64,000 bases of DNA from Methylobacterium sp. WL119 (GTDB lineage Bacteria; Pseudomonadota; Alphaproteobacteria; Rhizobiales; Beijerinckiaceae), in assembly GCF_008039875.1 (NCBI RefSeq), contig NZ_VRUU01000014.1, positions 1 to 64,000 of the forward strand, read 5' to 3'. Position numbers and translations under genes: made by a program. The number at the start of each line of letters is the position of its first letter. Position 1 is the first letter of the stretch. Below, in pieces: positions 38,552 through 48,340 of this stretch. Under the pieces are notes generated by a model. It saw nothing but the letters and a program-made list of their open reading frames with translations, was not told the origin of the DNA and made no database searches.

Positions 38552-38621
38552 GATCGATGCGCGCGCCGCATCGATCCATCCAGCCTTTGAGTTGGACGCC
38601 GCGCCGGGGACGCTCCTAACC
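38552..38621 (+). promoter_or_regulatory. LysR-type operator plus promoter of the first aldarate permease gene (site 1)
   Basis: A perfect inverted repeat GATCGATGC-N7-GCATCGATC (38552-38576) contains the T-N11-A core of LysR-type operators. Exactly 15 bases later comes TTGGAC (38592-38597), then an 18-base gap and CTAACC (38616-38621). With transcription starting near 38628 the palindrome centre is at about -64, the usual LysR position. The same unit recurs at 41792 and 45215. Confidence 0.8.
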
Positions 38622-38725
38622 TGAGATCGCAAGCGGCCGCCGGGGCCCCGTCGAGGGGCCTTCAGAGAACGGCCGCTGTCCGCTGCGGCACCGGCCGGGC
38701 GGTCCGCCTTCAGGGAGAAGGTCGT

Positions 38726-40051
38726 ATGAGCGCGGGTCTCGCCATGACCGCGGTGAAGCGCAGCCGCGTGCGGCTCCTCATCGTGACGATGCTCTTCATC
38801 GCCACCACCATCAACTACGCCGACCGCGCGACGCTCTCCATCGCCGGCCCGTCGCTGGCCAAGGACCTGGGCCTCGATGCGGTGGCGATGGGCTACGTCT
38901 TCTCCGCCTTCGCCTGGTCCTACGTCCTGGCGCAGCTGCCCGGCGGCTGGCTGCTCGACCGCTACGGCGCGAAGTGGGTCTATGCCGGCGCGATCTTCCT
39001 GTGGTCGGCCTTCACGCTGATGCAGGGGGCGGTCGGCTTCTTCACCGGCTTCACCGCGGTGGCGGTGCTGTTCGGCCTGCGCCTGCTCGTCGGCCTCGCC
39101 GAGGCGCCGGTGTTTCCGGCCAACGCCCGGATCACCGCGGCGTGGTTCCCCACCGCCGAGCGCGGCACCGCCTCGGCCTTCTTCAATGCCTCGCAGTACT
39201 TCGCCACCGTGCTGTTCACGCCGCTGATGGGCTTCGTCGTCCACCATTACGGCTGGCACCACGTTTTCACCCTGATGGGCGCGCTCGGCATCGCCTTCGC
39301 GCTGCTGTGGACCCAGGTGATCTACGGGCCGAAGGAGCACCCCGCGATCAACCAGGGGGAGCGCGACTACATCGAGGCGGGCGGCGCCCTCCTCGACATG
39401 GACGGCCGCGACGCGGGCGTGGCCCAGGTCGACGCCGGCCGCACGATCCGGCAGCTGCTCGCCAACCGCATGCTGCTCGGGATCTACGTCGGGCAGTACT
39501 GCATCACCACGCTGACGTACTTCTTCCTGACCTGGTTCCCGGTCTACCTCGTGAAGGAGCGCGGCCTGTCGATCCTGCAGGCGGGCTTCGCCGCGGTGCT
39601 GCCGGCGCTCTGCGGCTTCGTCGGCGGCATCCTGGGCGGCTGGATCTCGGACCGGCTGCTCAAGCGCGGCTGGTCGCTGACCGCATCGCGGAAGATCCCG
39701 ATCGTCGGCGGGATGCTGCTGTCGATGGTCATCGTCGGCTGCAACTACGTCCAGACCGACGCGCTCGTGGTCGGGCTGATGGCGCTCGCCTTCTTCGGCA
39801 AGGGCGTCGGGGCGCTCGGCTGGGCGGTCGTCTCCGACACCTCGCCGCGCCAGGGCGGCGGCCTCTCGGGGGGGCTGTTCAACACCTTCGGCAACACCGC
39901 CGGCATCACCACCCCGATCGCGATCGGCTACATCGTGCAGCAGACGGGGTCGTTCAACGGCGCGCTGGTGTTCGTCGGGCTGAACGCGCTCGTCGCCGTG
40001 TTCTGCTACCTCGTCGTCGTCGGCGAGATCCGGCGGGTGGAGCTGCGCTGA
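38726..40051 (+). CDS. gudP: MFS D-glucarate/galactarate permease (GudP/GarP-like), copy 1
   Basis: 441 residues, 12 helices, of the anion:cation symporter family. Typical marks are INYADRATLSIAGP in helix 1, [18 protein letters not shown] (motif A-like) and EAPVFPANARITAAWFP. The second half has [45 protein letters not shown], as in E. coli GudP. It should bring aldaric acids in with protons. ATG 38726 follows AGGGAGAAGG. Its promoter carries the shared LysR-type operator. A paralog lies at 45349. Confidence 0.88.
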   Translation: MSAGLAMTAVKRSRVRLLIVTMLFIATTINYADRATLSIAGPSLAKDLGLDAVAMGYVFSAFAWSYVLAQLPGGWLLDRYGAKWVYAGAIFLWSAFTLMQGAVGFFTGFTAVAVLFGLRLLVGLAEAPVFPANARITAAWFPTAERGTASAFFNASQYFATVLFTPLMGFVVHHYGWHHVFTLMGALGIAFALLWTQVIYGPKEHPAINQGERDYIEAGGALLDMDGRDAGVAQVDAGRTIRQLLANRMLLGIYVGQYCITTLTYFFLTWFPVYLVKERGLSILQAGFAAVLPALCGFVGGILGGWISDRLLKRGWSLTASRKIPIVGGMLLSMVIVGCNYVQTDALVVGLMALAFFGKGVGALGWAVVSDTSPRQGGGLSGGLFNTFGNTAGITTPIAIGYIVQQTGSFNGALVFVGLNALVAVFCYLVVVGEIRRVELR

Positions 40052-40159
40052 GCGGGCTCGCGCCGGCAAGGCAACGCTTCAAAGGCGACACGTCTCCGGC
40101 CCGGCTTCCAGACCGGTCGCAGGTTGCGCGGACCCGCAGAACACGTCCGCGCAACCGGC

Positions 40160-40372
40160 TCAAGCGGACCGCCGCCGCCACCCCTCGGGCACGGGATGGC
40201 GGGCATGCGCCTCGGCCAGCGCTTCGAGCCAGCCTGCGACGTCGGGTGGGATCGCGGCGTCGCCGGAGGCCCAACGGCGCACCAGGCGGTCATCGCAGGC
40301 CAGGGCCTGAGCGAAGCCCCGTTGCGACCAGCGCAGCCGGGCGAGCACGTCGCGGAGGCGGCTGGCAGTCAC
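40160..40372 (-). CDS. Small Cro/CI-like helix-turn-helix protein
   Basis: 70 residues. RLRDVLARLRWSQRGFAQAL, then RLVRRWASGDAAIPPDVAGWLEAL fits a Cro/CI HTH (S-Q-R-x-x-A-x-x-L and the R-x-W-x-x-G-x-x-x-x-P turn). No other domain. GTG 40372 overlaps the stop of the upstream small membrane protein (GTGA), so the two form a coupled pair. The insertion of this minus-strand pair between the permease and the regulator of the aldarate island suggests an acquired unit. Confidence 0.65.
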   Translation of the reverse strand: MTASRLRDVLARLRWSQRGFAQALACDDRLVRRWASGDAAIPPDVAGWLEALAEAHARHPVPEGWRRRSA

Positions 40373-40605
40373 CCGCCCAACACCTTGATGAAGGCGGCGC
40401 CCGCGCCGAACAGCGCAGCACCCGCGGCCATGCCGGACAGGGCGATCTGCCAGGGTGCCAAGGCTCGCTCGCGCGTCAGCTTGTCGGCCTCGGCGCGCAG
40501 CTTAGCCTGTTCCTCAATGAATTTCTGGGTCTCGGCGTTCGACCGGAGGACGCGAGCGACCTGCTCGGCGATGTCGAGGCTGTTCGGAGCGGATGTGCCG
40601 GCCAT
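40369..40605 (-). CDS. Small coiled-coil membrane protein
   Basis: 78 residues. A Glu/Lys/Arg-rich helix (VARVLRSNAETQKFIEEQAKLRAEADK) runs into one membrane helix (IALSGMAAGAALFGAGAAFI) close to the C-terminus, so it is tail-anchored-like. The function is unknown; comparable small proteins occur beside HTH genes in prophage-like or mobile segments. ATG 40605 has AGGA 8 bases upstream. Confidence 0.55.
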   Translation of the reverse strand: MAGTSAPNSLDIAEQVARVLRSNAETQKFIEEQAKLRAEADKLTRERALAPWQIALSGMAAGAALFGAGAAFIKVLGG

Positions 40606-40721
40606 CGGGGTCGTCCTGCAATTTAGCCGGGGAACTCCCGCGAACATGTCCGCAATATGAGGGACGATCGGACGAACGTCAACGACGGCGAAGTCGAACG
40701 TGCCCGTGACGACCCACCTCG

Positions 40722-40859
40722 CCGAAGCGACGCCACCCGATCGAGACCGTCTTCCGCAAGCCGAAGGCGTTCAAGCGCATCGCGAGGCAGGCCGACGAGA
40801 CCGATCGAAGCTTTGCTGCCATCATCCGTCTCGCCGCGACCGGCATCGGGATGCGATCA
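40722..40859 (+). pseudogene. IS5-family transposase remnant (C-terminal end)
   Basis: In the frame of base 40722 the DNA reads [21 protein letters not shown], then [15 protein letters not shown]. This closely follows the C-terminal signature of IS5/IS427 transposases (N-R-x-I-E-x-x-F, K-x-F-R-R-I-A-T-R-Y-D-K, F-x-A-x-x-x-L-A-A). Upstream the frame is broken by a stop and no N-terminal part exists, so only about 46 codons remain. It lies between the small HTH/membrane pair and the LysR gene and marks an old insertion. Confidence 0.65.
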
Positions 40860-40865
40860 ATCCAG
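40855..40865 (+). promoter_or_regulatory. Possible operator half-site before the LysR gene
   Basis: GATCAATCCAG, 37 bases upstream of the LysR start, matches the right half of the aldarate operators (GATCCATCCAG at site 1, GATCGATCCAG at site 2) with one change each. GCATCGGGATGC just before it is a short palindrome. It may be a weak autoregulatory site; it overlaps the IS remnant end. Confidence 0.3.
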
Positions 40866-40902
40866 GCACGTCGCAACCCGGGTCGCCTTTCCAGGATCGC
40901 GC

Positions 40903-41793
40903 ATGTTCGACTTCAGCCAGCTCCGGTGCTTCGCGGCCGTCGCCGAGGAGCTGCATTTCGGCCGGGCCGCCGCCCGGCTGAACATGACCCAGCCGCCGCT
41001 CTCGCGGCAGATCCAGGTCCTGGAGCGCATCCTCGACGTGCAGCTCCTCGACCGCACCAGCCGCTCGGTGCGCCTGACCGCGGCCGGGCGCAGCTTCCTG
41101 CCCGAGGCGCAGCGCATCCTGCGGCTCGCCGAGACCGCGACCCACGTCACCCGCCAGGTCGCGGCCGGAAGGGCCGGGGTGCTCAAGCTCGGGTTCACGG
41201 CGGCTTCGGCCTACGACTTCCTGCCCCGCCTCGTCATCGCCGCCCGGGCCGCGCTGCCGGACGTGACGCTCGCGCTGCGCGAGATGGTGACCAAGGATCA
41301 GGTCGAGGAACTGCTGGCCGGGCGCATCGACGCGGCGCTGGTGCGCCCGCCGGTCACCCATCCCGACCTCGCCTCCGTGCGGGCGCTGGCCGAGCCGATG
41401 GTGGTCGCCGTGCCCGCCGGCAATCGCCTGGCGGCGCACGCGGGCCTGACGCTGGCGGACCTCGACGGCGAACCGTTCATCGCCTACGCGCCGAACGAGG
41501 CGCACTACTTCCACGACCTCGTCCGCGGCCTGTTCGCCGAGGCCGGCATCCAGCCGCGCATCCTGCAGCAGCTGACGCAGATCCACTCGATCCTGGCACT
41601 GGTGCGTGCCGGCCTCGGGGTCGCCCTGGTGCCGGCGGCGGCCGAGCGTCTGCGCTTCGAGGGCGTCGCGTTCCGCCCCCTCGACCTGCCCGCGCCGCGC
41701 CCGGCCGAGCTGCACCTCGCCTGGCGCCGCGACGGCGACGACCCGCTGATCGCGCGCCTGATCGCGATCCTGGCAGCGCTGCCGCCGGGATGA
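40903..41793 (+). CDS. LysR-type regulator, probable activator of the aldarate genes
   Basis: 296 residues. The N-terminal winged HTH reads [35 protein letters not shown], followed by the linker helix and a two-lobed LysR substrate-binding domain ([35 protein letters not shown]). The ligand is unknown, but position suggests glucarate, galactarate or a breakdown product. It is transcribed towards gudD, 122 bases upstream of it, and three T-N11-A operators of one sequence flank the island's transcription units. ATG 40903 follows AGGA. Confidence 0.88.
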
Positions 41794-41860
41794 TCGATGC
41801 CTGTCGCGCATCGATCGATCCAGCCTTTGGCTTGGACCCGCATCGGCATCCTTGCGAGAA
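41792..41860 (+). promoter_or_regulatory. LysR-type operator plus promoter of the gudD operon (site 2)
   Basis: GATCGATGC-N7-GCATCGATC at 41792-41816, perfect in both arms. TTGGAC follows at 41832-41837, again 15 bases after the palindrome, and the -10 region falls near 41855-41860 (CGAGAA, weak). It overlaps the last two bases of the LysR gene. It shares the trailing ATCCAGCCTTTG block with site 1. Confidence 0.8.
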
Positions 41861-41915
41861 CGTGCGGCAGACGGCGCGCCAGACGCCGGTCCCGTCAACG
41901 CCCCGGGAGGCACGC

Positions 41916-43277
41916 ATGCAGGCCGACGCCGTCGATGCCCCGTCGCGCGGATTTTCGCGCTCCCCCACCGTCACCGCAATGCGGGTCGTGCCGGTCGCCG
42001 GCCGCGACAGCATGCTGCTCAACCTCAGCGGCGCGCACGGCCCGTTCTTCACCCGCAACCTGGTGATCCTCGAAGATTCCACCGGCGCGACGGGCCTCGG
42101 CGAGGTGCCCGGCGGCGAGCGCATCCGCGGCGTGCTGGAGGAGGCCCGCGACCTGATCGTCGGGCGCCCGCTCGGCGCCTGGCAGGCGGTGCTCAACGCG
42201 ATGCGCGCGCGCTTCGCCGACCGCGATTCCGGCGGGCGCGGCCTCCAGACCTTCGACCTGCGCGTCACGATCCACGCGGTGACGGCGGTGGAATCCGCCT
42301 TCCTCGACCTGCTCGGCCAGTTCCTCGACGTGCCGGTGGCGGCCCTGCTGGGCGAGGGCCAGCAGCGCGACGCCGTCGAGATGCTGGGCTACCTGTTCTA
42401 CGTCGGCGACCGCCGCCGCACCGATCTGCCCTATCGCGAGCCGACCGCCCGCGACGGCTGGATGCGGCTGCGCGACGAGGAGGCCCTGACGCCCGACGCC
42501 GTCGCACGCCTGGCCGAGGCCGCGCATGCGGCCTACGGCTTCAACGACTTCAAGCTGAAGGGCGGCGTGCTCGCCGGCGAGGACGAGATCGCCGCCGTCA
42601 CCGCGATCCACGAGCGCTTCCCGGAAGCCCGCGTCACCCTCGACCCGAACGGCGCGTGGTCGCTCGCCGAGGCGATCCGCCTGTGCAAGGGCCGCGGCGA
42701 CGTGCTCGCCTACGCCGAGGATCCGTGCGGGGCCGAGGACGGGTTCTCGGGCCGCGAGATCATGGCCGAGTTCCGCCGCGCCACGGGCCTGCCCACCGCC
42801 ACCAACATGATCGCCACCGACTGGCGCCAGATGAACCACGCGATCCAGCTCGGCAGCGTCGACATCCCGCTGGCCGACCCGCATTTCTGGACGCTGGCCG
42901 GCTCGGTGCGGGTGGCGCAGCTCTGCCGCGACCACGGGCTGACCTGGGGCTCGCACTCGAACAACCACTTCGACGTGTCGCTGGCGATGTTCACCCACGT
43001 CGCGGCCGCCGCCCCGGGCAAGGTGACGGCGATCGACACGCACTGGATCTGGCAGGACGGCCAGCGCCTGACCAAGGAGCCGCTGGCGATCCGCGGCGGG
43101 CTCGTGCGGGTGCCGGATCGTCCGGGGCTGGGCATCGAGATCGACATGGCCGAGGTCGAGGCGGCGCACGCGCTCTATCTGGACCACGGCCTCGGCGCCC
43201 GCGACGACGCGGCGGCGATGCAGTTCCTCGTCCCGAACTGGACCTTCGACAACAAGCGCCCGTGCCTCGTGCGCTGA
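41916..43277 (+). CDS. gudD: D-glucarate dehydratase
   Basis: 453 residues of the enolase superfamily. It removes water from D-glucarate to give 5-keto-4-deoxy-D-glucarate. Visible parts are [26 protein letters not shown] (capping domain), the Lys motif [10 protein letters not shown], metal ligands in [19 protein letters not shown] and TNMIATDW, and the His of [27 protein letters not shown] is a GlucD hallmark. Length matches E. coli GudD. ATG 41916 follows GGGAGG. It is the first gene of gudD-garL-garR. L-idarate may also be a substrate in this family. Confidence 0.94.
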
Positions 43278-43296
43278 GGGCGACGGACGCTTCAGA

Positions 43297-43431
43297 TCCC
43301 TCCCCCTCTGCGGGGGAGGGTGGCCCCTGCGTCGGCAGGGGTCGGGAGAGGGGAGCGCCGTATCCGGCACCGGCGCTCCCCTCTCCCGACCCGCTTCGCG
43401 GGCCACCCTCTCCCGCAGAGGGGAGAGGGAG
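43297..43431. repeat. Long imperfect inverted repeat between gudD and garL
   Basis: Two arms of about 60 bases (43297-43360 and 43371-43431) pair imperfectly around a short centre. Inside the left arm is a complete small hairpin, CCCTCCCCC-N5-GGGGGAGGG (43298-43320). It looks like a paired REP/BIME element. Sitting inside an operon, it could lower or stabilise downstream expression. Confidence 0.65.
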
Positions 43432-43489
43432 GCGCGTGATCCGGACGACGCTCGACCTCTCAGATCGATTCCACGAAGGAGCACATCCG

Positions 43490-44254
43490 ATGGACATCCT
43501 CTCCAACCGCTTCAAGGCGGCGCTCGGCCAGGGCCGGCAGCAGATCGGCCTGTGGTGCAGCCTCGCCAGCCCGATCTCCACCGAGGTCGTGGCCGGCTCC
43601 GGCTTCGACTGGCTGCTCCTCGACATGGAGCATTCGGCCAACGACCTGCGGGACGTCTACAGTCAGGTCCAGGCGATGATGGAGAGCCCGGCCCACGCCA
43701 TGGTGCGGGTGCCGAGCGACGAGGCGATCACCATCAAGCGCATCCTCGACACCGGGGTGCAGTCGCTGATGATCCCCAACATCGACGACGCCGACCAGGC
43801 CCGCCGCGCGGTGGCCGCGACCCGCTACGCCCCGCGCGGCGTGCGCGGCTTCTCGCAGGCGCCGCGCGCCGCCCGCTTCGGCCGCATCCTCGACTACCAC
43901 GCCCGCTGCGAGGCCGAGATCTTCGTGGCCGTGCAGATCGAGTCGCGGCGGGCGCTCGACAACCTCGACGAGATCGCCGGCGTGGAGGGCGTCGACGGCG
44001 TCTTCGTCGGCCCCGGCGACCTCTCGACCAGCCTCGGCTACCTCGGGCAGCAGAACCATCCGGACGTGGTGGCGATCATCGAGGAGACCGTGGCCCGCAT
44101 CGGGAAGGCCGGGAAGCACGCCGGCATCCTCACCGCCAACGAGGAACTGGCCCACCGCTACATCGCCGCCGGCACCCGCTTCACCGCGGTCGGCTCCGAC
44201 ATGGGCCTGCTCGCGCGGCAGTCCGAGGCGCTCGCCGCCCGCTTCAGGGGCTGA
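43490..44254 (+). CDS. garL: 2-dehydro-3-deoxyglucarate aldolase (HpcH/HpaI family)
   Basis: 254 residues. It splits 5-keto-4-deoxy-D-glucarate into pyruvate and tartronate semialdehyde, a class II retro-aldol reaction needing a divalent metal. Signatures are GLWCSLASPISTEVVAGSGFDWLLLDMEHS (metal-side Asp/Glu and the His base), MVRVPSDEAITIKRILDTG, VQIESRRALDNLDEI and GVFVGPGDLS (second metal ligand). Close homologs such as HpcH act on other keto-acids; the operon context fixes the likely substrate. ATG 43490 has AAGGAG at 9 bases. Confidence 0.9.
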   Translation: MDILSNRFKAALGQGRQQIGLWCSLASPISTEVVAGSGFDWLLLDMEHSANDLRDVYSQVQAMMESPAHAMVRVPSDEAITIKRILDTGVQSLMIPNIDDADQARRAVAATRYAPRGVRGFSQAPRAARFGRILDYHARCEAEIFVAVQIESRRALDNLDEIAGVEGVDGVFVGPGDLSTSLGYLGQQNHPDVVAIIEETVARIGKAGKHAGILTANEELAHRYIAAGTRFTAVGSDMGLLARQSEALAARFRG

Positions 44255-44265
44255 GCCAGGATCGA

Positions 44266-44288
44266 CCCTCCCCCTCCGCGGGGGAGGG
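44266..44288. repeat. Small REP-like hairpin between garL and garR
   Basis: CCCTCCCCC-TCCGC-GGGGGAGGG, 9-bp perfect arms, 11 bases after the garL stop. It is the same family as 34272-34298 and 43298-43320. Being inside the operon it may mark an RNA-processing or partial termination point. Confidence 0.65.
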
Positions 44289-44316
44289 CGGATGCGCCAT
44301 TCCGGGAGACACCACC

Positions 44317-45201
44317 ATGAACATCGGATTCATCGGCCTCGGCATCATGGGCGCGCCCATGGCCGGGCACCTGATCGCCGCCGGGCACAGCCTGTTCCTG
44401 AAGAGCCGCCGGGCGGTGCCCGAGGCCCTGGTCGCCGCCGGCGGCACGCCCTGCGCCACCGCCGCCGAGGTCGCCGAGCGCGCCGACGTCGTCATCCTGA
44501 TGCTGCCGGACACCCCCGACGTCGAGACGGTGCTGTTCGGCGCGGACGGCGTCGCGGCGGGCCTGAGGTCCGGCACGACCGTGATCGACATGAGCTCGAT
44601 CTCGCCGATCGCGACGAAGGACTTCGCCGCCCGCATCAGGGAGCGCGGCGGCGCCTATCTCGACGCGCCGGTCTCCGGCGGCGAGGTCGGGGCGAAGAAC
44701 GCCGCCCTCTCGATCATGGTCGGCGGCGACGAGGCCGATTTCGGGCGCGCACAACCGCTGTTCGCGGCCATGGGGAAGACCGTGACCCATGTCGGCCCGG
44801 TCGGATCGGGCCAGGTGGCGAAGGTCGCCAACCAGATCATCGTCGCGCTCACCATCGAGGCGGTGGCCGAGGGTCTGCTGTTCGCCTCGAAGGCCGGCGC
44901 CGACCCGGCCAAGGTCCGCGAGGCGATCACCGGGGGCCTGGCCACCTCGCGCATCCTCGAGCTGCACGGCAAGCGCATGATCGACCGCACCTTCGATCCG
45001 GGCTTCCGCATCGGGCTGCACCAGAAGGACCTGAACCTGGCGCTGGAGGGCGCCCGGGCGCTCGGGCTCAGCCTGCCGGCCACGGCGCTGGCGCAGCAGC
45101 TGTTCTCGGCCTGCGTCGCCAACGGCGGGGCGGCCTGGGACCATTCGGCGATGGTCCGCGCGCTGGAGATCATGGCGAACCACGAGGTCGGCGCCGCTTG
45201 A
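44317..45201 (+). CDS. garR: 2-hydroxy-3-oxopropionate (tartronate semialdehyde) reductase
   Basis: 294 residues of the beta-hydroxyacid dehydrogenase family. The N-terminal Rossmann motif is IGFIGLGIMGAPMAGHL. The substrate motif is YLDAPVSGGEVGAKNA, the catalytic Lys lies in VGSGQVAKVANQI, and the C-terminal helix has GFRIGLHQKDLNLAL. It reduces tartronate semialdehyde to D-glycerate with NAD(P)H, the step after GarL. GlxR has the same activity; symbol choice rests on the operon. It is the last gene before the second permease promoter. Confidence 0.9.
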   Translation: MNIGFIGLGIMGAPMAGHLIAAGHSLFLKSRRAVPEALVAAGGTPCATAAEVAERADVVILMLPDTPDVETVLFGADGVAAGLRSGTTVIDMSSISPIATKDFAARIRERGGAYLDAPVSGGEVGAKNAALSIMVGGDEADFGRAQPLFAAMGKTVTHVGPVGSGQVAKVANQIIVALTIEAVAEGLLFASKAGADPAKVREAITGGLATSRILELHGKRMIDRTFDPGFRIGLHQKDLNLALEGARALGLSLPATALAQQLFSACVANGGAAWDHSAMVRALEIMANHEVGAA

Positions 45202-45214
45202 CCCACGCTCGATC

Positions 45215-45283
45215 GATCGATGCCGCGATGGTATCGATCGATCCATCGTTTGGATTGGAAGGTATCGACCGGGCGGACTAATC
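45215..45283 (+). promoter_or_regulatory. LysR-type operator plus promoter of the second permease-garD operon (site 3)
   Basis: GATCGATGC-N7-GTATCGATC at 45215-45239, one arm mismatch compared with sites 1 and 2; an extra GATC precedes it. TTGGAA follows at 45255-45260, 15 bases after the palindrome as in the other two. A 17-base gap leads to CTAATC (45278-45283). The mismatch keeps symmetry at all but one pair, so binding may be weaker. Confidence 0.78.
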
Positions 45284-45348
45284 TGGAAACCTCAAGGAAA
45301 CCGACCGCGACGGGCACGCATCCGTCGGGCGATCCCGAGGAGGAAACC

Positions 45349-46728
45349 ATGTCGCTGGCGATTCCGGTGCAGAGCGCGACGCGCATGCGCGTGCGCTACC
45401 TGATCCTCCTCGTGCTGTTCGCGGTCACGGTGCTGAACTACGCCGACCGCGCGATCATCTCGATCGCGGGCGTGCCGATCGCGCAGGAATTCGGCATCAC
45501 GCCCGTGCAGATGGGCTACATCCTCTCCGCCTTCAGCTGGTCCTACGTCGCGGCCCAGCTGCCCGGCGGCTGGCTGCTCGACCGCTACGGCACCAAGTGG
45601 ATCTATGCCGGCGGCGTGTTCTTCTGGTCGTTCTTCACCTTCGTCCAGGGCTGGGCCGGCTTCCTCGGCGCGGGCTCCGCGGTGGCGGTGTTCTTCCTGA
45701 TGCGGATGCTGGTGGGCATCGCCGAGGCGCCGTCCTTCCCCGGCAACGCCCGCCTCGTCACCGCCTGGTTCCCGGCGGCCGAGCGCGGCAAGGCCTCGGC
45801 CGTGTTCAACGCGGCCCAATACTTCGCGCCGGTGCTGTTCGCGCCGCTCACCGCCTGGGTGACCCAGAGCTTCGGCTGGCGCTACGCGTTCTTCAGCATG
45901 GGCCTGATCGGCCTGGCGATGGTGCTGCTCTGGGTCTGGCTGATCCACGACCCCAAGGACCATCCGAGCGTCACCTCGGGCGAGCTCGACGAGATCGCCC
46001 GGGGCGGCGCGCTGGTGCAGGTCGGCGCCGCGCCGTCGGGCGCGACCACGTCGACAGCGCGCGACGCGAAGCCGGTGCGGGCGGGCGCCGCCCCCGCCGC
46101 CGGCACCTGGGGAACGATCAAGCAGCTCCTCGGCAACCGGATGCTGCTCGGCATCTACGTGGCGCAGCACTGCATCAACGTGATGACCTACTTCTTCCTG
46201 ACGTGGTTTCCGATCTACCTCGTCAAGCAGCGCGGCATGTCCGTGCTCCAGGCCGGCTTCACCGCCTCGCTCCCGGCCTTGTGCGGCTTCGTCGGCGGCA
46301 TCCTCGGCGGCGTGATCTCCGACGCGCTCCTGCGCCGGACCGGCTCGCTCAACATCGCCCGCAAGCTGCCGATCATCGCCGGCATGCTGCTGTCGATGGT
46401 GATCATCGCCTGCAACTACGTCGACTCGCATGCCCTGGTGATCGGCCTGATGGCGGCGGCCTTCTTCGGCAAGGGCCTCGGGGCGCTCGGCTGGGCGGTG
46501 GTGTCCGACACCTCGCCCAAGGAGGCGGCGGGCCTGAGCGGCGCGCTGTTCAACATGTTCGGCAACACCGCCGGCATCACCACGCCGATCATCATCGGCT
46601 ATCTCGTCCAGTCCTCGGGCTCGTTCGACACGGCGTTGGTCTTCGTCGGGATCAACGCGCTCGTGGCGATGAGCGCCTATCTCCTCCTCGTCGGCGACAT
46701 CCGGCGGGTGGAGCTGCGCCGCGCCTGA
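45349..46728 (+). CDS. MFS D-glucarate/galactarate permease (GudP/GarP-like), copy 2
   Basis: 459 residues, 12 helices. It is plainly paralogous to the permease at 38726: [48 protein letters not shown], and [28 protein letters not shown]. It differs by a longer central loop (Ala/Thr-rich, about residues 225-255). It is followed after 28 bases by garD, so it may be the galactarate-preferring carrier, though that is inference. ATG 45349 has GAGGAGG at a good distance. Confidence 0.88.
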
Positions 46729-46756: not shown

Positions 46757-48340
46757 ATGCCAGACGCCGTGATCGAAGCCCCGCCGGTGCCGCCGGCCGG
46801 GCCCGCCCTGGGCGACGCCCCCCGCACCATCCGCCTGCACGCGAGCGACAACGTCGCCATCGTCGTCAACGCCTTCGGGCTGCCGGCCGGCACGGTGTTC
46901 TCGGACGGGCTGACCCTCGTCGAGTTCGTGCCGCAGGGCCACAAGGTGGCGCTCGCCGCGATCCCCGAGGGCGGCGAGGTCCGGCGCTACGGCGAGGTCG
47001 TCGGCATCGCGACGCAGGATATCCCGTGCGGCGCCTGGGTCGAGGAATCGCGCGTGGCCACCCCGACCGCCCCCGCCCTCGACGCGCTGGAGATGGCGAC
47101 CCGCGTGCCGGCGCCCCTGCCGCCGCTGACCGGCTGCACCTTCGAGGGGTTCCGCAACCCGGACGGCTCGGTCGGCACCAAGAACATCCTCGCCATCTCG
47201 ATCAGCGTGCAATGCGTCGCCGGCACCCTCGACGTGGCGATCCGGCGGATCAAGGCGGAGCTGCTGCCGCGCTTCCCCAACGTCGACGACGTGGTCGGGC
47301 TGACCCACGCCTACGGCTGCGGCGTCGCGATCAACGCGCCGCAGGCGGTGATCCCGATCCGCACCCTCCAGAGCCTCGCCCGCAACCCGAATTTCGGCGG
47401 CGAGGTGATGGTGGTGGGCCTCGGCTGCGAGAAGCTCGTCTCCGAGCGCCTGCTGCCGGACGGCGACGACGCGCAGGACGGCGGCGTCGTGCGGATGCAG
47501 GACGAGCGCCACCAGGGCTTTTCCATGATGCTCGACAGCATCATGGCGATGGCCGAGGCCCGGCTCGCGATCCTGAACCGGCGCCGGCGCGAGACCTGCC
47601 CGGCCTCCGACCTCGTGGTCGGCCTGCAATGCGGCGGCAGCGACGCGTTCTCCGGCGTCACCGCCAACCCGGCGCTCGGGTACTGCGCCGACCTGATCGT
47701 CGCCGCCGGCGGCACGGTCCTGTTCTCGGAGGTCACCGAGGTCCGCGACGCGATCCACCTGCTGACGCCGCGCGCCAAGACGCCAGCGGTGGCCGAGGCT
47801 TTGGTGCGCGAGATGGCGTGGTACGACGACTACCTCGCCAAGGGCGAGGCCGACCGGCGCGCCAACCCGTCCCCCGGCAACAAGAAGGGCGGGCTGAACA
47901 ACATCGTCGAGAAGGCGCTCGGGTCGGTCGCCAAATCCGGCACCTCGGCGATCTCCGGCGTGCTCGCCCCGGGCGAGCGGGTCCGCGAGAAGGGCCTGAT
48001 CTTCGCGGCGACGCCGGCGAGCGACTTCGTCTGCGGCACGCTGCAGCTCGCCTCCGGGATCACCCTCCAGGTGTTCTCGACGGGCCGCGGCACGCCCTAC
48101 GGCCTCGCGCAATGCCCCGTGATCAAGGTCGCGACCCGCACCGAGCTCAGCCAGCGCTGGTCCGACCTGATCGACCTCGACGCCGGCCGCATCGCCACCG
48201 GCCACGCGACGATCGAGGAGGTCGGCCGCGAGCTGTTCCAGCTCATCCTCGACGTGGCGAGCGGGCGCAAGACGCCGTGGTCCGACCGCTGGGGCCTGTT
48301 CAACGACCTGACGCTGTTCAACCCGGCGCCGATCACCTGA
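46757..48340 (+). CDS. garD: Galactarate dehydratase
   Basis: 527 residues, UxaA family. An N-terminal SAF domain ([15 protein letters not shown] to [17 protein letters not shown]) is followed by the catalytic domain with [62 protein letters not shown] and [26 protein letters not shown]. Several Cys and His in these segments are the presumed iron ligands. It converts galactarate to 5-keto-4-deoxy-D-glucarate, joining the GudD route. It forms an operon with the permease upstream. Confidence 0.94.

Follow-up and report, generated by a model that had tools for sequence, protein, structure and literature searches.

A conserved 46-bp sequence unit and a LysR-type regulator predicted to control aldarate genes in Methylobacterium

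The window analysed here, meaning the whole stretch of 64,000 nucleotides at positions 1 to 64,000 of contig NZ_VRUU01000014.1 (Methylobacterium sp. WL119, assembly GCF_008039875.1), contains an island of genes for aldarate uptake and breakdown, and within this island a sequence unit of about 46 bp occurs three times in front of different genes (Table 1). Gene families were judged by the curated NCBIfam and Pfam cut-offs. The names given to gudD, garR and garD in a preliminary description of this DNA were upheld, as all three proteins scored above the curated NCBIfam cut-offs, and both permeases passed that of TIGR00893, the galactonate-transporter subfamily; for garL the HpcH/HpaI aldolase domain was found and the equivalog cut-offs were not reached. 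The aldolase-route set of gudD, garD, garL and garR is present in full, garL by domain and context only. GudD and GarD both yield 5-keto-4-deoxyglucarate, which GarL splits into pyruvate and tartronate semialdehyde, the latter being reduced by GarR to glycerate. A LysR-type gene had also been placed among these genes, and its product indeed carries both LysR domains (PF00126, 80.5 bits with a cut-off of 26.6; PF03466, 150.2 bits with a cut-off of 28). This protein reached no NCBIfam equivalog cut-off among the models shown, the best being AlsR with 248.5 of 430 bits; the BenM and CatM models matched it at 1e-41, far under their cut-offs.

The upstream part of the unit is a palindrome, GATCGATGC-N7-G(C/T)ATCGATC, found with zero mismatches on the plus strand at three places in the window. 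When up to three mismatches were allowed there were six strand matches, corresponding to three places read on both strands; shuffled sequences gave a mean of 0.37 matches, and six were reached in none of 100 shuffles. Exactly 15 bases separate this operator from TTGGAC at sites 1 and 2 and from TTGGAA at site 3, and CTAACC and CTAATC, previously proposed as -10 elements of sites 1 and 3, lie 18 and 17 bases 3' of the hexamer. The T-N11-A core of the preliminary description was recovered at all three sites, as ATGC-N7-GCAT at sites 1 and 2 and as ATGC-N7-GTAT at site 3. In the whole genome (5,705,445 bases) the arms, GATCGAT-N11-ATCGATC, occur exactly at the three island sites only; two further places match with one mismatch, and the backwards control of the pattern gave no match in the genome. 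Each copy in the island heads a separate gene group, namely permease 1, gudD-garL-garR, and permease 2-garD. Unit 2 overlaps the stop codon of the LysR gene.

Table 1. Units and genes of the aldarate island (positions in the window)
Feature	Position	Strand	Basis or details
Unit 1, before permease 1	38552..38597	+	palindrome 38552-38576; proposed activation half-sites 38578-38592; -35-like TTGGAC 38592-38597
-10-like TAACCT of unit 1	38617..38622	+	sequence; CTAG at about this offset in relatives
Permease 1, MFS, TIGR00893 subfamily	38726..40051	+	family cut-off passed
LysR-type regulator, proposed binder of the three units	40903..41793	+	PF00126, PF03466; co-occurrence with the unit
Unit 2, before gudD	41792..41837	+	palindrome 41792-41816; proposed activation half-sites 41818-41832; -35-like TTGGAC 41832-41837
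Fifth half-site GCAT of unit 2, offset 48	41840..41843	+	sequence
Degraded -10 position of unit 2, CGAGAAC (relatives: CTAGAAC)	41855..41861	+	sequence and relatives
gudD, glucarate dehydratase	41916..43277	+	TIGR03247 above cut-off
garL-type aldolase	43490..44254	+	HpcH_HpaI domain; under equivalog cut-offs
garR, 2-hydroxy-3-oxopropionate reductase	44317..45201	+	TIGR01505 above cut-off
Unit 3, before permease 2-garD	45215..45260	+	palindrome 45215-45239; ATCC-N7-GGAT 45241-45255; -35-like TTGGAA 45255-45260
Possible fifth half-site GTAT of unit 3, offset 47	45262..45265	+	sequence
-10-like TAATCT of unit 3	45279..45284	+	sequence
Permease 2, MFS, TIGR00893 subfamily	45349..46728	+	family cut-off passed
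garD, galactarate dehydratase	46757..48340	+	TIGR03248 above cut-off

Corresponding loci were compared. A scan with the LysR protein returned 38 loci, 33 of them from Methylobacterium or Methylobacteriaceae, and the LysR gene of the window shares 77-86% identity with genes from records of Methylobacterium. With up to three mismatches, the palindrome was present behind LysR in 32 of the 33 Methylobacterium-type loci, locus L056 being without one. Stacking these 32 loci and the window as 33 ungapped rows gave 1.74 bits for the arms, 0.30 for the 7-base centre, 1.76 for the next 21 bases, and 0.43 and 0.49 for the flanks; a stack of 14 rows on the permease-1 side (13 loci and the window) gave 1.83, 0.82, 1.83, and 0.40 and 0.76, respectively. 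As the rows were chosen by the palindrome alone, the conservation of the 21 proximal bases is an independent result, the rows themselves coming from related species and so not being independent draws. The proximal bases are as conserved as the arms, and the unit therefore measures about 46 bp, twice what had been seen before, with the consensus GATCGATGC-N7-GCATCGATC-NATCCAGCCTTTGRNTTKGAC; offsets 26-30 and 34-37, upstream of the -35 hexamer, are nearly fixed. The 15-base distance of the preliminary description is exact, and its reading as a mere spacer is not tenable, since these bases are conserved in the 32 related loci. Bare arms were rejected as a diagnostic motif, being found in 25 of 298 genomes of the family, other genera included, mostly without the inner GC...GC; it is the full unit that is diagnostic, and the patterns of subsequent searches were longer.

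The proximal half of the unit was found, at up to three mismatches, in 62 of 111 genomes of the genus, and its mirrored control in none of them. LysR matches at E <= 1e-60 were obtained in 70 of these genomes, 50 at 76-100% identity, 14 at 57-61% and six at 52-53% only; the last six were counted as lacking this LysR. On this count the unit was found in 61 of the 64 genomes whose LysR is at least 57% identical, as against 1 of the 47 others (Fisher p 2e-26, an overstatement, given the relatedness of the genomes). Among the exceptions, genome G375 carries the unit at four mismatches of the full consensus.

A similar association was seen beyond the genus. A 43-base version of the unit, at up to three mismatches, was present in 19 of 397 genomes of the order (mirror, 0): three in the own genus (nine sampled), seven in a single genus of another family (f35) and nine in a single genus of a third (f36). 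Outside the own genus, 26 of 30 places, in 25 loci, were examined. The next gene was gudD in three cases, kdgD followed by gudD in four, talarate dehydratase in one and a permease 1-like MFS permease in three; other transport genes encoded a DctP-type TRAP receptor (six, one family-checked) or a TctC-type receptor (five, two checked), and the rest were LysR itself (one), a GntR regulator (one) and genes without assignment (two). All 16 unit-bearing genomes of the two other families encode the LysR at 55-60% identity, and among the remaining 20 sampled genomes of these families it was found in seven and absent from 13. In the LysR proteins of unit-bearing relatives the DNA-binding domain is 69-94% identical and the effector domain 50-76%. 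A class-wide search found the unit in none of 380 sampled genomes outside the order; yet Phenylobacterium L062 (LysR 61%), which was reached via the LysR protein, has two back-to-back units, before kdgD and before permease 1, the second with nine mismatches. No clear unit was seen in the stretches inspected of Novosphingobium L063. In Curvibacter L065, GCATCGGTCTAGCCAGTTTTTG between LysR (42%) and gudD resembles the proximal part by eye, and its left arm misfits.

The unit is retained while the neighbouring genes change. Following the LysR-side unit in the 32 loci is gudD (11), garL (19) or garD (2), and the unit precedes permease 1 in 13 of 13 loci which have this gene. In 10 of these 13, LysR follows permease 1 in the same direction at a gap of 45-90 bp, so that in those loci LysR, too, would be expressed from unit 1; the corresponding gap in the window is 851 bp and contains two small reversed frames. 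These frames (40163-40605, minus) encode a protein with a weak helix-turn-helix match under the cut-off and a 78-residue protein without a Pfam match, and neither had a relative among the 38 related loci searched. REP-like GC-rich inverted repeats of the CTCCCC...GGGGAG type were noted by eye at 43290-43440, between gudD and garL, and at about 44265-44290, between garL and garR. In 30 loci from the genus search the next gene was permease 1 (10), gudD (10), garL (8) or no island protein (2). The last two, L068 and L084, have units near 1530 (minus) without an intact island gene; L084 keeps, by eye, a stretch like a permease end, which would mean that the element may outlive its gene. Loci L071 and L085 (LysR 57-58%) have the unit between divergently oriented LysR and gudD or permease genes, and a regulator divergent from its target is the usual LysR arrangement.

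Five of the places matched by the proximal half in the genus have exactly three mismatches, and of these three precede an L-talarate/galactarate dehydratase gene (NF047820, 657-667 bits, cut-off 500), one precedes permease 2-garD and one (L129) is followed by no recognised aldarate gene. Sequence alone had thus led to off-island aldarate genes in relatives. The talarate dehydratase occurs in 21 of the 111 genus genomes as 23 copies, none of them in the genome of the window. A unit-like sequence lies upstream of six of the 23, and all six genomes have a LysR at least 76% identical; the mismatches to the full consensus range from 3 to 7, with 12 in G316, where the inner palindrome and TTGGAC are intact. 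G315, which has no close LysR, carries a unit-like sequence with six mismatches behind its talarate dehydratase gene. Many genus genomes encode a second LysR about 50% identical (further matches 44-53%); in G318 one such gene (C1:467595) is near a talarate dehydratase-like gene (C1:464829), from which it appears that this second LysR may control dehydratase copies without the unit. Two other loci, L134 at 3558 (+) and L137 at 3338 (-), have GATCGATGCC and, after it, a diverged element that contains CCATGCCGACATGG, behind a LysR of 61-62% and before garD; this is possibly a re-specified version of the unit. Aldarate genes or transporters make up most of the neighbours of units, including at loci where gudD, garL and garD have been exchanged.

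To examine the internal geometry, 4-N7-4 inverted repeats were scored at each centre in 106 unique units, in four classes, which were defined by the sequence at offsets 37-45 and are called after the gene mostly following. Offset 12 was the best centre in each class, with 3.5-3.8 of 4 pairs. Offset 33 was second best in the three genus classes (2.3, 2.8 and 3.0; medians 1.0-1.1), a symmetry which is not fully independent, as the search patterns contain part of the proximal element. Half-site-like sequences lie at offsets 5, 16, 26 and 37, and the second conserved element is centred 21 bp downstream of the first, beside the -35 box. Of 82 genus units, 30 have a CTA at offset 63, 64 or 66, and of 29 other units 19 have one at 63 or 64; in the remaining units there is no CTA between offsets 56 and 75. 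If CTA is taken as the -10, the predicted transcription start falls near offset 77, which would place the two sites near -65 and -44. The palindrome centre so predicted is in line with the -64 of the preliminary description, provided that the -10 has been predicted correctly. The arrangement agrees with LysR half-sites at a spacing of 10-11 bp, with a predicted recognition site at about -65, a predicted activation site at about -44, two helical turns further along, and then the -35 box.

Of the 32 units in the class 'gudD and rest', 20 have a further half-site (GCAT, ACAT or GTAT) at offset 48, and two more have it at 47. At offset 48 it occurs in 6 of 25 units of the other families and in none of the 24 garL-type and 25 permease-type units, five of the latter having it at 49. 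The background at offsets 61-96 was a mean of 0.03-0.25 rows per offset. These positions are in no search pattern, and the relatedness of the rows may inflate the class contrast. In the window this fifth half-site is at 48 in site 2 and at 47 in site 3, and site 1 has none; paired with offsets 37-40 it makes a candidate third site, at a distance of about 32 bp from the palindrome.

Taken together, these results suggest that the three copies are very probably the control sites of the LysR protein encoded in the island, by which it would switch on aldarate uptake and breakdown. The comparison supports the regulon with a defined operator put forward in the preliminary description, with the operator redrawn from 25 bp and a spacer to about 46 bp with a second site, and without a good -10 at site 2. 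Several observations weigh against this interpretation. Genomes G299 and G379 have the LysR (58-62%) and garD about 1.2 kb after it, with no recognisable unit; conversely, G336 has a unit before gudD and no LysR within the 10 kb fetched. The seven LysR-bearing genomes of the two other families lack the unit at the stringency used, no unit lies upstream of 17 of the 23 talarate dehydratase copies found in the genus, and the off-island unit of L129 is without a recognised aldarate gene. At site 2 the -10 position reads CGAGAAC where relatives have CTAGAAC, and the gudD promoter of this strain may be weak or strongly activator-dependent. Another regulator, either of the GntR type or the small helix-turn-helix protein at 40163-40372, might bind the units, with LysR a mere neighbour. 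G336 would agree with this, as would the unit outside the genus that precedes a GntR gene and the role predicted for the GntR-family protein GguR in the control of aldarate genes of Halomonas (PMC5507952). We regard this as improbable, given the co-occurrence of unit and LysR across genomes and the T-N11-A form of the inner ATGC-N7-GCAT, which is known for LysR proteins; the small helix-turn-helix cassette (40163-40605) was rejected as a regulator, having no relative in the 38 loci and a domain match below the cut-off.

Alternatively, LysR may bind the palindrome only, the proximal 21 bases being promoter or polymerase contacts and not a second LysR site. The proximal part does end in a -35-like hexamer, and its inverted repeat is imperfect in most units, lies partly within the search patterns and has a low rank in the other families, where offset 33 is sixth (1.64; median 1.16), the left half being most often ATGC. 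The nearly fixed offsets 26-30 and 34-37 lie upstream of the hexamer, however, site 3 holds the perfect pair ATCC-N7-GGAT, and a distance of 21 bp comes near the 22 bp known from MetR and CynR, so that we consider a palindrome-only operator unlikely. That the units are copies of a repetitive element or of a recent local duplication, with no regulatory role, has next to no probability. Three similar copies do lie within 6.7 kb, with related permeases behind two of them, but the arms have no other exact copy in 5.7 Mb, the 7-base centre is free between fixed arms, and copies stand at corresponding places across species and families; the repetitive-element explanation was rejected on the first two of these grounds.

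For control by the LysR protein the following mechanism can be proposed, in which we infer the binder, the inducer, activation and the start sites. A LysR tetramer would keep one dimer anchored on the upstream palindrome at about -65. Glucarate, galactarate or a derivative, the proposed inducer, would shift the second dimer to the half-site pair at about -44, beside the -35 box, and polymerase would be recruited. At gudD and permease 2-garD, the ligand-free regulator would sit one half-site lower by means of the fifth half-site and block the -35 box, and the permease 1 promoter would only be activated, without such repression. We offer this two-class promoter code tentatively, as a possibility that is somewhat doubtful: all targets would have a recognition and an activation site, the ligand-free regulator would clamp the -35 box of gudD-type and permease 2-garD promoters, uptake would lead and breakdown would stay shut until the sugar acid is present, and the 46-bp module would be a constant input for varied pathway genes (garL-garR or kdgD) and transporters (MFS, TRAP, TTT).

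Known LysR systems of comparable layout have been described. The sites are placed at -63/-41 for MetR and -66/-44/-34 for CynR, and the outer sites of OccR at -64 and -33; OccR, CynR, OxyR and IlvY are counted as IR1/IR2/IR3 systems, and MetR and GcvA as having two sites (PMC5002191). The unit described here is like the IR1/IR2/IR3 systems in having a T-N11-A palindrome near -65 (predicted) and a second site two helical turns on beside the -35, and gudD-type units have a candidate third, overlapping site about 32 bp away, comparable to that of OccR and CynR (PMC5002191). It differs in that IR2 is the least conserved site there, whereas the proximal site here is as conserved as the palindrome, and in that the regulator there is divergent from its target, whereas in the window the regulator and all targets are codirectional and divergence is met only in more distant relatives (PMC5002191). 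The sliding-dimer model of BenM/CatM and DntR is alike in protein family, in a recognition binding site (RBS) near -65 and in a shift between activation sites; substrates and half-sites differ (PMC4730206). According to the same source, a conserved motif for the activation binding site ABS'' had not been deduced, in contrast to the conserved proximal site of this regulon (PMC4730206). GguR is predicted to govern the same kind of catabolic genes and belongs to the unrelated GntR family, the operator here being of the LysR type (PMC5507952). Among the openly accessible papers listed in our searches there was no LysR-aldarate regulon for Methylobacterium and no description of this unit; an earlier description is possible. 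CdaR, the aldarate regulator of E. coli, is likewise of a protein family unrelated to LysR. As judged from sequence comparison, the predicted regulon is new and well defined, its architecture is of a known kind, and the conservation of its proximal site is unusual.

The LysR type is one of the largest families of bacterial regulators, and to our knowledge the targets and the weak activation site of most of its members are not known. Here, comparison of corresponding promoters gives a predicted regulator, its targets and a base-by-base recognition-plus-activation site. The natural promoter classes with and without the further half-site make the sliding-dimer question testable within one organism, and the regulon would also supply aldarate-responsive promoters for Methylobacterium.

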